A stretch of DNA of 64,000 nucleotides from Sacculina carcini. Taxonomy: Eukaryota; Arthropoda; Thecostraca; Sacculinidae. The notes beneath the pieces are model-generated. The model saw nothing but the letters and a program-made list of their open reading frames with translations. It ran no database searches and was not told the DNA's origin. Location: positions 3,200,645 through 3,264,644 of the forward strand of contig OU696585.1 in NCBI GenBank assembly GCA_916048095.2, in the 5' to 3' direction. Position 1 is the first letter of the stretch; each line of letters starts with the position of its first letter. Below, piece after piece: positions 56,408 to 63,985 of the stretch. The translations under genes and the position numbers were made by a program.

Positions 56408-57310
56408 ATGCAAGCAATGCACAGCAAAAGCGATATTGATGAAGCATTCATCAAACACCTAGCCTGGACCGGTGTTACCGAAGAGGCAGCAAAGTTATGT
56501 GTCCACTACAACATCTCTTCAAAGTGGAGCATGCTTTCCAACTGGAGGAAGACCATCCGCCAGTGTCCCGCGTACTATGTGCGCTATATCAAGATCTACT
56601 CGGCGAAAATGATCACCCAGAAGCCCAGCAAAGCTCTCGCCATGTGTGGCAAGCATACCACTTTGCTGAAGGATTTGGAGATTTCGCTACGTATGTACAC
56701 CAGATGGTGGCAATTAGAGTTTGTACAGCAGCAACAAGGGGTCATTGTTCTGCTCGACTACATGAATATCGTACTGTCGGCCAAAGAACGCGTTGACCAA
56801 AAAGAGAAAACAGCCGTTCAAAACTGCTGTATGCAGATCTTCAAAACATCAAACACCAAAAAGACCACTCGTATGGCCAATGCACAACAGGTGTTAAACC
56901 TATGTGTGCTCTGCCTCAAAGCAATAGTCAGTGAGAGGCAATCACTCAGCAAAATTGTGCTGGATCGGGATAATACCCTGGTACTGGTACGTTGCGTGGA
57001 CTTTATCCAGCAAGAGGCCACTGCAACGATCATTATGGGCATTTTGAAAAAGCTGGCCAAAATCAACCCGTATGTCAGCGCAGCAATTCAAGAAGTTCGC
57101 TACATGGATCTCAGCACGCGTGAGATTGGTCAGTTAAGCAAGTTAGTCACGAATTTCGACGAGCCTGGACCTCGATCACCATACATCGATTACTCTGATA
57201 TTCCTCGGGTACTCAGCTGGGTTGTTTGTGAGGATATCGGAATATCTAGCCGTCAGTGTGACATACAGCCAATAAGCAGAACAGTAATGCTCTTCAGTGA
57301 AATGTTAAAG
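56408..57310 (+). other. Formin GBD/FH3-like N-terminal region
   Basis: Helical, non-repetitive sequence including [65 protein letters not shown] and [13 protein letters not shown]. The order (short pre-helices, L-x-DLxISL, then an armadillo-like region with K-x-AVQ-C-x-x and a late MxxILKxLAxI) follows formin Drf_GBD/FH3 segments, which bind Rho-family GTPases. Assignment is from memory of the family pattern and needs a profile search. Confidence 0.5.
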
Positions 57311-58055
57311 GCATTGGACCTGATAGAAAACATATGTTCAGACAGTGTAATGAACAAACATCAAGCCAACGAAGACGTTAGGAAATCTGCGAACAACGGT
57401 ATTGGTAGAAAGAGCAGAAACGCAACCGATAAAGTGGTTTTTGTAAATAGTGACGTATCACTGTCAATGTCCAGTGATTTGATAATACCACCGCCATCAT
57501 CACGATCACTATCATTACTACCACAACCACAACCACTACCATCACCTTCACCATCGTCGTCGACCCTCCCATCAGCTGCTTTGTGCCGAGGAGACCCGCA
57601 GCCCTTCCTCGGACCAGCCGAGTCGACGCGCCCAGGCGACCAGCAGACCGGCCATCTCGACCGGGCGTCGCCACAGGTCCTCCAGCTGAAGACCCGTGGG
57701 CATGTTTGGGCAGCGGAACAGATGCGGAATTGTTCCACTACATATATGACATGTCGAGGGTCCCGGATTATCCTCGATGTCGCCGGCGAGGCAGATGAAG
57801 TTCATCGGCCACGCTCCGGCACGCGCAGATCGACCGACACAAAAAATGATGCAGGGCTTCCAGATTTTGGATGCGGGATAGATTTACATGATTTGAGCAG
57901 AGTTTCTCTAGGTATGCTGCAGTCCAACCGCGTGCAGACCGAAGACGTTCGGACCCTACCGTCACCATCACCACCACAATCACCACGACTACCATCACCA
58001 TCATCACCACAATCATCATCATCATTATCATCACCACAATCATCATCACCACCAC

Positions 58056-61000: not shown

Positions 61001-63985
61001 CATGCGTTCTTCAATAGTGTCGACTGGCAGCGTTTGGAGCAGAAGCAAGTGACGCCCCCGTACAAGCCACACGTCAAGACCGAACTTGATCTGGCCAACT
61101 TTCCGTCCCTCATCACAGACGAGCCGGTGCGACTGACACCCGAAAACACAAGCGCCATTGAAAAAATCGACCAGAGCCAATTTGACGGTTTTGATTATGT
61201 TAACCCGTTGCGAATATCGCTATCATCGTCATCACCCACACCATCTGCACGACCACCGTCTCCATTACAATCACCATCACCACATATATCTCCGCTACAA
61301 CCGTCGACATTTCCTCGTCACCCTACGTTGAGGCCAGTTAACAAGTTATTGAAGGGAAAGCACGCTGGCAAACCAGTGGCGCGGAAGCATCTGCGCTGTG
61401 ACCCAACCAAGGGTAAACTACACACCAACACCACCACGAAGTCGATGAAGATATCGGCCAAAGTTGGAGTTGACGCGGTGGAGCCGGCTCTCGCCGTTGT
61501 CCCTACCATCACTAAAACGGCCAGTGTGGACCCGGTTCCTGCTGGGGCCGCGGCCATTCTCCCCAGTAAGTATTCGCTGGCCGATTTTGATCTGATCCGC
61601 GTGATTGGACGCGGCGGATTCGGCAAAGTGATGATGGTGGAGTTACGACGCACTCGGCGCGTCTTCGCCATGAAGGCGATCAAAAAAAAGCTGATCAAGA
61701 AACCCAAGGATAAAGGCCGAGTGCAGACCGAGACACGCGTGTTTAAGATGGTGTCCAACCACCCGTTCCTGGTGGGAATGCACTCGTGCTTCCAAAGTCC
61801 CAGTCGGCTGTTCTTCGTGATTCAGTTTGTGCGCGGCGGCGACCTCATGTTTCATATGGAGCGTCACGGCAAACTGCCGGAGGAGCACGTCAAGTTCTAC
61901 TCTTCGGAGCTGTGCCTGGCGCTTAACTTTCTGCATGATAACGGCATTATCCATCGTGACCTGAAGCTGGAAAATGTGCTGATCGACCACGAGGGACATA
62001 TTAAGCTTATCGACTACGGCCTTTGCAAGGAAGGAATGCGACCAGGCAACACAACGTCCACCTTCTGCGGCACACCTCACTACATCGCTCCGGAGATATT
62101 GCTTGGCCAGAAATATAACTTCAGTGTTGATTGGTGGTCGCTGGGCGTGCTCATGTTTGAGATGCTCACTAATCGCATTCCGTTCGAAACTGGCCATCAT
62201 TCTAAAGCACAAAATGAGAAAACAAAGAACCATCTGTATCGGATAATTATCGAGAAGACCATCCGCATTCCGCCCTCTTTGTCGGCGAATGCGCGCAAAA
62301 TCCTGAGAGGTCTTCTAAAAAAGAACCCGGTAGAGCGACTGGGCTGTCAAACGAACACCGGCTTCAAAGACATCGTTGAGCATGAGTTCTTCAACAGTGT
62401 TGACTGGCAGCTTTTGGTGCGGAAGCAAGTGAAGCCGCCGTATAAGCCACACGTCAAGACCGAACGTGATCTGGCCAACTTTCCGTCCCTCTTCACAGAC
62501 GAGCCGGCGCGGCTGACACCCGACAACACAAGCGCCATTGAAAAAATCGACCAGAGGCAATTTGACGGTTTTGATTATGTCAACCCGTTGCTAATATCGC
62601 TATCACCGTCATCACCCACACCATCTGCGCGACCACCGTCTCCATTAAAACCACCATCACCACATATATCTCCGCTACAACCGTCGCCATTTCCTCGTCA
62701 CCCTACGTTGAGGCCAGTGTCGCGTAACAAGCAATTGAAGAGAAAGCACACTGGCAAGCCAGTGGCGCAGAAGCATCTGCGCTGTGACCCAGCCAAGGGT
62801 AAACTCCACACTAACACCACCACTAAGTCGATGAAGATATCGGCCAAAGTAGGAGTTGACGCGGTGGAGCCGGCTCTCGCCGCTGTCCCTACCATTACTA
62901 AAACGGTCAGTGTGGACCCGGCTCCTGCTGGGGCCGCGGCCATTCTCTCCAGTCAGTATTCGCTGGCCGATTTTGATCTGATCCGCGTGATTGGACGCGG
63001 CGGATTCGGCAAAGTGATGATGGTGGAATTACGACGCACTCGGCGCGTCTACGCCATGAAGGCGATCAAGAAGAAGCTGATCAAGAACGCCAAGGATATC
63101 GGCCGCGTGAAGACCGAGACACACGTGTTTAAGATGGCGTTCAACCACCCGTTCCTGGTGGGACTGCACTCGTGCTTCCAAAGTCCCAGTCAGCTGTTCT
63201 TCGTGATTCAGTTTGTGCGCGGCGGCGACCTCAGGTTTCATATAAAGCGTAACGGCAAACTGCCGGAGGAGCACGTCAAGTTCTACTCGGCGGAGCTCTG
63301 CCTGGCCCTGAGCTTTCTGCACGAGTACGGCATTATTCATCGTGATCTGAAGCCGGAAAATGTGTTGATCGACCACGACGGACATATCAAGCTTATCGAC
63401 TACGGCATTTGCAAGAAAGGAATGCGACCAGGCGACAGAACGTCCACCTTCTGCGGCACGCCCCACTACATCGCGCCGGAGATGTTGCTTGGCCAGAAAT
63501 ATAACTTCAGTGTTGATTGGTGGTCGCTGGGCGTGCTAATGTTTGAGATGCTCACTAATCGCAGTCCGTTCGAAATTGGCCATCATTCTAAAGCACCCAA
63601 TGAGAAAACCAAGAACCATCTGTATCGGATAATTCTCGAGAAGACCATCCGCATTCCGCCCTCTTTGTCGGCGAATGCGCGCAAAATCCTGAGAAGTCTT
63701 CTAAAAAAGAACCCGGTAGAGCGACTGGGCTGTCATCCGGACACCGGCTTCATAGACATCGTTGGGCATGAGTTCTTCAACAGTGTTGACTGGCAGCTTT
63801 TGGTGAGGAAGCAAGTGAAGCCGCCGTACAAGCCACGCGTCAAGAGCGAACGTGATCTGGCCAACTTTCCGTCCCTCTTCACCGACCAGCAGGTGCGGCT
63901 CACACCCGAAAAGAAATGCTGCATCGAACAAATCGACCAGAGACAGTTTGACGGATTCGATTATGTGAACCCGCTGATGATGTAG
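56408..63985 (+). CDS. Intronless giant protein: formin GBD/FH3-like region, repeat linker, three aPKC-type kinase domains
   Basis: A single 2,525-codon frame from ATG 56408 (a second Met follows at 56417) to TAG. Residues 1 to about 300 resemble the GTPase-binding/FH3 armadillo region of formins. Residues about 360-1250 are Ser/Pro-rich and contain repeated [24 protein letters not shown] modules. Kinase domains start at about residues 1263, 1722 and 2184, each with the AGC C-tail. They match atypical PKC: LVG(M/L)[29 protein letters not shown] and [10 protein letters not shown]. No PB1 or C1 domain precedes them. Every neighbouring gene has introns, so a retrocopy origin followed by internal duplication is likely. 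Coding status rests on length and three conserved domains; domain 1 lacks the DFG Asp. I know of no named family with this architecture. Confidence 0.85.
57565..57955 (-). mobile_element. Antisense LINE-like insert with a 2A-like NPGP motif inside the kinase ORF
   Basis: The minus strand encodes [20 protein letters not shown] followed by an [14 protein letters not shown] cysteine cluster. GDIEDNPGP (57,758-57,784) fits the 2A ribosome-skipping consensus, which is also found near the N terminus of some non-LTR ORF1 proteins. On the plus strand the kinase ORF stays open through the insert, contributing about 125 residues unlike the flanking Ser/Pro repeats. Near-direct repeats gaccctcccatca and gaccctaccgtca flank it. 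Origin as a retroelement piece is inferred. Confidence 0.45.
58200..60180 (+). other. Ser/Pro linker with repeated polybasic modules
   Basis: Six copies of a module whose core is [20 protein letters not shown] lie before kinase 1; two more, diverged ([20 protein letters not shown]), precede kinases 2 and 3. Four also carry a second block ([15 protein letters not shown], then [14 protein letters not shown]). Between them are runs of SSP encoded by tca/cca trinucleotides. At least two stretches (58,600-58,960 and 59,570-59,940) are near-identical, showing recent duplication. Composition predicts disorder. Confidence 0.8.
60194..61215 (+). other. Kinase domain 1: aPKC-type, DFG Asp replaced by His (pseudokinase candidate)
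   Basis: Gly loop [12 protein letters not shown]-binding Lys1297 in [14 protein letters not shown] with Asp1392, then [11 protein letters not shown], where aPKC has a DYG. His1410 replaces the Mg-binding Asp (codon CAC for GAC). The activation loop [13 protein letters not shown] and the C-tail ([15 protein letters not shown]) are kept. Loss of this Asp usually abolishes or sharply lowers phosphotransfer, so a scaffold or regulatory role is likely. Confidence 0.85.
61571..62593 (+). other. Kinase domain 2: aPKC-type, intact active site
   Basis: IGRGGFGKV, Lys1756 in [14 protein letters not shown] with Asp1851, DYG with Asp1869, [21 protein letters not shown], turn motif LTPDN and hydrophobic motif [10 protein letters not shown]. 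An Asp in the hydrophobic motif instead of Ser/Thr is the aPKC-like, constitutively acidic version. All catalytic residues are present. Confidence 0.88.
62957..63979 (+). other. Kinase domain 3: aPKC-type, intact active site
   Basis: IGRGGFGKV, Lys2218 in [14 protein letters not shown] with Asp2313, DYG with Asp2331, [13 protein letters not shown], then RLTPEK and [12 protein letters not shown] at the C terminus. It is closest to domain 2, including the linker before it, so this pair is the younger duplication. Confidence 0.88.

Follow-up and report, generated by a model that had tools for sequence, protein, structure and literature searches.

A single open frame in Sacculina carcini joins a formin-like segment to basic linker repeats and three atypical protein kinase C-type kinase domains

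A 64,000-nucleotide stretch of the Sacculina carcini genome (contig OU696585.1, positions 3,200,645 to 3,264,644; hereafter the window) contains one long open reading frame (ORF; 56408..63985, + strand) that encodes 2,525 amino acids. Its predicted product begins with an FMNL-like formin segment, continues through an array of basic linker repeats and ends in three kinase domains of the atypical protein kinase C (aPKC) type (KD1, KD2 and KD3), the first of which has lost the Asp of its DFG motif. We read the gene, with a probability of about 0.4, as an intronless chimera in which a segment derived from an FMNL-type GBD/FH3 region was joined to an aPKC region triplicated together with its linker, and whose product would be recruited by a GTPase and act on its own linkers. 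A sequence-only reading of this DNA had proposed a formin GBD-type N-terminus and three aPKC-type kinases in one frame, and both the domains and the frame are supported by the present analysis. The linker repeats, which it did not mention, hold the most informative motif of the protein. Feature coordinates below refer to the window and to its + strand unless stated otherwise.

The 7.6-kb frame is uninterrupted, as had been claimed. It runs for 2,525 codons from an ATG in a CACCATG context to a TAG, within a stop-to-stop extent of 56393-63985 (+); "one exon" in this text means one open frame read from DNA alone. When each segment was modelled by a first-order Markov chain (the two short inter-kinase linkers being left out), no stop-free sequence arose in 20,000 trials each for the N-terminal 1,020 nt and KD3, one arose in 20,000 each for KD1 and for KD2, and none in 5,000 for the 2-kb linker array. 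The remaining two forward frames hold 3-32 stops per segment across eight segments. The openness of the frame is not a matter of chance.

The sequence-only reading had described three complete kinases, all of aPKC type, at a spacing of about 460 residues and accompanied by neither PB1 nor C1. With the whole protein as query, Pfam returned Pkinase three times (1.7e-202) and Pkinase_C three times (9.5e-20), and neither PB1 nor C1 was among the 17 families matched at E<=1. The glycine loops lie at aa 1272, 1731 and 2193, i.e., 459 and 462 residues apart. KD1 (aa 1262-1603, 60191..61216), KD2 (aa 1721-2063, 61568..62596) and KD3 (aa 2183-2525, 62954..63982), each including its C-tail, have PKC iota as the nearest match (6.2e-155, 3.5e-147, and 5.1e-150, respectively), with identities of 64%, 60%, and 61% over essentially the full length. 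For KD2, the next PKC was PKC beta at 1.2e-100, among the best 60 of 403 Protein Data Bank (PDB) matches. Since the PDB matches listed (the best 60 of 403 for KD2, 10 of 10 for KD1 and KD3) include no PKC zeta chain, the iota and zeta types are not separable here. Kinase-like Pfam matches such as ABC1, APH, Kdo and similar families, as well as a weak match to BppU_N, were dismissed as low-complexity or fold-level echoes.

All three kinases retain the beta-3 Lys, the alpha-C Glu, the HRD motif (with His where PKC iota has Tyr) and the catalytic-loop Asn, and in each of them the activation-loop Thr, the LTP turn motif and the acidic hydrophobic motif (FDGFDY) are present. KD2 and KD3 also keep the DFG Asp and every other catalytic residue checked. 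In KD1 alone the motif reads HYG (aa 1410-1412, 60635..60643) in place of DFG/DYG, the Asp being replaced by His. KD1 is therefore probably a pseudokinase. The three kinases are complete in length, but one of them departs at a catalytic residue.

The kinase copies diverge by 8-16% in DNA. KD2 and KD3 form the closest pair (86% amino acid identity, 92% DNA identity, synonymous divergence dS 0.15), and KD1 stands at a dS of 0.37-0.42 from both. The ratios of nonsynonymous to synonymous change (dN/dS) were 0.32 for KD1-KD2, 0.30 for KD1-KD3, and 0.46 for KD2-KD3, with Fisher p values of 3e-10, 7e-12, and 0.002, respectively. Because synonymous change per site exceeds nonsynonymous change in all three pairs, selection has kept the kinases after their duplication; this purifying selection is an average over the time since duplication and does not imply selection at the present day. 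On the complementary strand, the frame that lies in register with the kinase domains (60191-63982, -) is nearly open, with 2 stops in KD1, 3 in KD2 and 3 in KD3. Two antisense frames of 196 aa (60590-61180 and 61643-62233), at offsets that do not match, are probably a by-product of codon use.

The peptide FKRQGSVRRR is an efficient PKC iota substrate, and in the co-crystal its F-5 and R-3 rest on D339, M341, M344 and L381, while R+2 touches the phosphorylated activation loop (PMC4998004). KD1 and KD2 have the same four residues in this pocket, whereas KD3 keeps D339 and carries the equivalents of M341R, M344I and L381P. W298 and Y265 are described as forming the pocket taken by the inhibitory arm of Par3 (PMC4998004). 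At the position of W298 all three kinases have Arg; Y265 is retained in KD1 alone, KD2 and KD3 having Phe there. The RIPR motif, reported to serve the docking of Lgl (PMC11996676), reads HIPR in KD1 and RIPP in both KD2 and KD3.

A basic linker unit occurs eight times in the protein: six copies form the array ahead of the kinases (aa 601-1261, 58208..60190), and one copy each precedes KD2 (aa 1604-1720, 61217..61567) and KD3 (aa 2064-2182, 62597..62953). Within the array, two units are truncated and run on into Ser/Pro-rich sequence. In five linkers FLRHGT[L/F] is present, that is, the strict form F-x-R-x-G-[S/T]-hydrophobic, which is absent elsewhere in the protein. These copies read FLRHGTL at aa 747-753 (58646..58666), FLRHGTF at aa 848-854 (58949..58969), and FLRHGTL at aa 960-966 (59285..59305), aa 1071-1077 (59618..59638) and aa 1172-1178 (59921..59941), and basic runs follow them. 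The looser pattern F-x-R-x-x-[S/T]-hydrophobic has seven matches, all in linkers, namely the five strict ones and FPRHPTL in each inter-kinase linker (61310-61330 and 62690-62710). In shuffles of a single 103-aa linker, the strict pattern F.R.G[ST][VILMF] arose in 6 of 20,000 cases for linker Lf and in 4 of 20,000 for linker Ld, figures to be read in the knowledge that the linkers are duplicates, and so represent one origin, and that the motif was picked after the sequence had been seen. FLRHGT[L/F] matches the FXR-type substrate pattern of aPKC and is a putative phosphosite. A derivation of the linker from the C1 region of aPKC was considered and dropped, as no C1 match was found at E<=1. A structure prediction of linker plus KD1 from a three-row alignment was unusable (pLDDT 33.4).

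The N-terminus had been described as a formin GBD/FH3-like region. A resemblance is seen for the GBD part. The Pfam model Drf_GBD matched aa 5-215 (56420..57052) with E 3.9e-6 and 26.9 bits when aa 1-400 served as query, and with 22.5 bits (E 8.8e-5) when the whole protein was used, both scores lying below the cut-off of 30.1. A phmmer search of aa 1-400 against 177,635 distinct PDB sequences gave FMNL2 at 7e-9 and FMNL1 at 5e-8, followed by a third and last match (E<=1) at 0.67. The aa 5-215 region thus resembles an FMNL-type GBD together with the start of FH3, and by its similarity the segment is FMNL-like, though diverged. In the PDB alignments the resemblance extends to about aa 183, in Drf_GBD to aa 215. 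The following aa 216-340 (57053..57427) belong to no recognised family, aa 201-400 alone giving no Pfam match at E<=1, and may be the diverged remainder of FH3. A Band_3_cyto match (0.016, aa 1-400) was set aside as another low-complexity or fold-level echo, and an AF2 model of aa 1-345 alone was unusable (mean pLDDT 36.7). In the FMNL2-Cdc42 structure, Cdc42 is described as contacting the GBD and all five armadillo repeats, the named FMNL2 contacts including K73, E111, H222, R261, E311, D360 and S361 (PMC4432619). Three of them could be mapped here, and two of the three are kept in kind (K73 as R51, E111 as E91). Binding of a GTPase by the segment is plausible on these grounds.

How such a protein might work can be sketched from its parts. 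The aPKC substrates Lgl, Numb and Miranda are reported to bind membrane through polybasic or basic-hydrophobic motifs until they are phosphorylated (PMC6020718, PMC5783611). The kinase parts, and perhaps the formin part too, would have come from processed mRNA. The formin-derived segment would replace PB1-Par6 as the input and, through a Rho-family GTPase, recruit the protein to the membrane, where the basic linkers could bind acidic membrane as the polybasic aPKC substrates do. KD2, and KD3 without the same docking, would then phosphorylate the FLRHGT motifs of their own linkers, in cis or between molecules, and so free the linkers from the membrane. KD1, with its docking pocket kept and its catalysis lost, might retain a linker or act as a regulator of KD2. 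With the R+5 pocket tryptophan gone and the RIPR motif altered, all three kinases would escape Par3-type inhibition and Lgl docking. The full version of this scheme, in which the array and its own substrates constitute a Par6-bypassing, Par3-insensitive switch from GTPase to membrane release, with KD2 active, KD3 active without docking, KD1 a docking-only pseudokinase and at least five tethered FXR/polybasic motifs, we consider unlikely.

Several observations weigh against the chimera acting on its own linkers. The first group concerns the input module. Pfam FH3 is unmatched whether the whole protein, aa 1-400 or aa 201-400 serves as query, so the FH3 half of the earlier description is not supported as such. 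The FMNL2 contact H222 corresponds to N164 and is not kept; the FMNL2 stretch that places it is weak alone (i-Evalue 41), and the FMNL1 alignment agrees. R261, E311, D360 and S361 fall beyond the alignable part, and FMNL2 uses all five armadillo repeats. Glycine G2, which is myristoylated in FMNL2, is absent as well. The unmatched FH3, the changed H222, the four unalignable contacts and the use of five armadillo repeats by FMNL2 together make GTPase binding doubtful.

The second group concerns the linkers. The strict motif is missing from three of the eight, and linker La fits neither pattern and lacks the FXR arginine. The loose pattern is common by chance, arising in 38 and 46 of 20,000 cases when single linkers were shuffled. 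When the entire protein was shuffled 3,000 times, 36 of the products contained the strict pattern and 696 the loose pattern. Where the PKC iota peptide has R+2, the linker motifs have Ser, and their acceptor is Thr. The main result against the auto-substrate reading is the linker dN/dS, which ranges from 0.48 to 1.00 over 16 pairs; among the 5 pairs that were tested, none had a value significantly lower than 1. The motifs may thus persist because the copies are young.

The remaining objections concern KD1 and the origin of the gene. The private departures from PKC iota number 18 in KD1, 12 in KD2 and 13 in KD3, and those of KD1 include the DFG Asp and a one-residue deletion, which may mean decay instead of a new role. 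On the other side, KD1 is the copy most like PKC iota, and the dN/dS values of its pairs are not the higher ones. KD1 may accordingly be either a maintained pseudokinase or a copy in early decay. As for retroposition, the argument is the missing introns alone, as the window ends 15 bases past the stop, before any poly(A) or target-site duplication could be seen.

These points bring forward another explanation, that the locus is a constitutive aPKC retrogene whose kinases work, whose formin segment is a diverged leftover without GTPase binding and whose linkers are neutral spacers made of repeats and microsatellites. We regard it as a serious candidate, if on the doubtful side. It accounts for the match of the GBD model alone, the loss of one mapped Cdc42 contact, the CAT/CAC-rich character of the region and the linkers showing no significant constraint (5 of 16 pairs tested), but it leaves aside that the N-terminal 1,020 nt have stayed open against a chance of 0 in 20,000 with FMNL similarity at 7e-9, and that an exact aPKC docking and phosphorylation pattern has been kept in five linkers.

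Two further explanations are improbable to a similar degree. According to one, the formin segment (or an exon of it) and the kinase gene are two transcription units, separated by an intron or spacer that is open by luck. The Ser/Pro-rich stretch (aa 341-600, 57428..58207) is indeed of low complexity, partly coded by CAT/CAC microsatellite and open in 111 of 20,000 Markov sequences. However, the frame continues beyond it through the 2-kb linker array (0 of 5,000 by chance). Positions 56301-61000 hold no + strand match to the donor pattern GTRAGT, a strict one that would miss weaker donors, and the + strand of the ORF is free of AATAAA, with a single ATTAAA at 62644. Long microsatellites occur in the window, and the ORF region is rich in CAT/CAC repeats. 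According to the other, the frame is an intact, retro-derived but unexpressed copy; it is intronless, diverged tandem repeats adjoin it upstream and the reading is made from DNA alone. A silent copy would hardly combine kinase dS values of 0.15-0.42 with dN/dS of 0.30-0.46 and zero stops in 2,525 codons. A misassembly that inflated the tandem kinase copies is very improbable, since, in spite of DNA identities of 92% for KD2-KD3 and 93% for linkers Lb-Le, the 8-16% DNA divergence of the kinases, their selection-like patterns and the KD3-specific pocket changes exceed sequencing error.

The surroundings of the gene bear on the chimera reading through its proposed origin. The DNA upstream of the ORF contains histone deacetylase and zf-UBP exons (HDAC6-like) as well as exons for a Ras-family GTPase and for a myosin head, and we take the gene content to be animal-like. 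The deacetylase and myosin genes are split, with consecutive parts of their profiles on separate frames. Since an intronless frame sits beside split genes, a processed-mRNA (retrocopy) origin is suggested and is the probable one. No further copies of the ORF were found in positions 1-56407 of the window (tblastn E<=1; blastn E<=1e-3). Scans for relatives of KD2 or aa 1-300 in viral contigs, and of KD2 in prokaryotic contigs, gave 0, 1 and 36 pattern-matching stretches, none of them confirmed, a result uninformative on animals.

Just 5' of the ORF, diverged direct repeats (55977-56117 and 56136-56289; aligned pieces 70-91% identical) end about 120 bp before the ATG and are possibly transposon-derived or part of a promoter. 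The deacetylase exons of the HDAC6-like gene span 38585-40744 and its zf-UBP exon 47688-48101 (+). Elsewhere, a non-LTR retrotransposon occupies 3606-7567 (-), with a reverse-transcriptase frame (RVT_1, 6.5e-34), an endonuclease frame (Exo_endo_phos, 2.1e-12) and a zinc-knuckle-like frame at 6509-7567 (-), judged by eye. Very similar copies of one protein fragment lie at 32968-33780 (-) and 46593-47348 (+), the former giving no Pfam match at E<=0.001. About 3.5 kb of short tandem repeats (29006-32549) are open in several forward frames.

If expressed, the protein would be an example of evolution connecting a polarity kinase straight to a GTPase sensor of formin type and bypassing Par6, and of a kinase being fused to several copies of a substrate of its own type. 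The differences among KD1, KD2 and KD3 in the DFG motif and the docking pocket could then serve as a natural series for uncoupling docking, catalysis and Par3 inhibition in aPKC.

RSK and MSK are tandem kinases that pair two different kinase classes, and plant tandem kinase-pseudokinase proteins reportedly combine a kinase and a pseudokinase within one chain. The present protein resembles these in carrying several kinase domains and in its probable kinase-pseudokinase mix, but unlike RSK/MSK it holds three copies of one aPKC. With atypical PKC (PKC iota/zeta, Drosophila aPKC), it shares all three kinase domains with their C-tails, turn motifs and hydrophobic motifs. It is nevertheless not a canonical aPKC, judged by the missing PB1 and C1; it has three kinase domains instead of one, lacks the DFG Asp in KD1, has lost W298 in every kinase and has an altered RIPR. 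Unlike the aPKC pseudosubstrate, the linkers have Thr in the acceptor place and are in that respect substrate-like.

With the FMNL formins (FMNL1/2/3), the protein has in common the GBD at its N-terminus and, to a weak degree, the beginning of FH3. In contrast to them, it lacks glycine 2, and FH1, FH2, FH3 and DAD are not among the 17 Pfam families matched at E<=1; for want of FH2 it would not be classed as a formin. No published formin-aPKC fusion or tandem aPKC gene was recognised among the openly licensed papers listed in searches aimed at them. A precedent for GBD/FH3 shuffling is Dictyostelium RasGEF-L/V (PMC555941). There, too, a signalling enzyme that is not a formin acquired GBD/FH3 as one unit, but the recipient was a RasGEF with a complete GBD/FH3, whereas here a kinase array with a partial match is found in an animal. 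Rakshambikai et al. (2014) described as "rogue" those kinases (18 of 1,498) whose catalytic domain belongs to a known subfamily and whose architecture is typical of no subfamily (PMC4177888). The main text of that paper, apart from its table of cases, contains "GBD" and "Drf" 0 times and "formin" once. With catalytic domains of a known subfamily in an atypical architecture, the protein described here is a "rogue" kinase by that definition, and a new combination of known parts.

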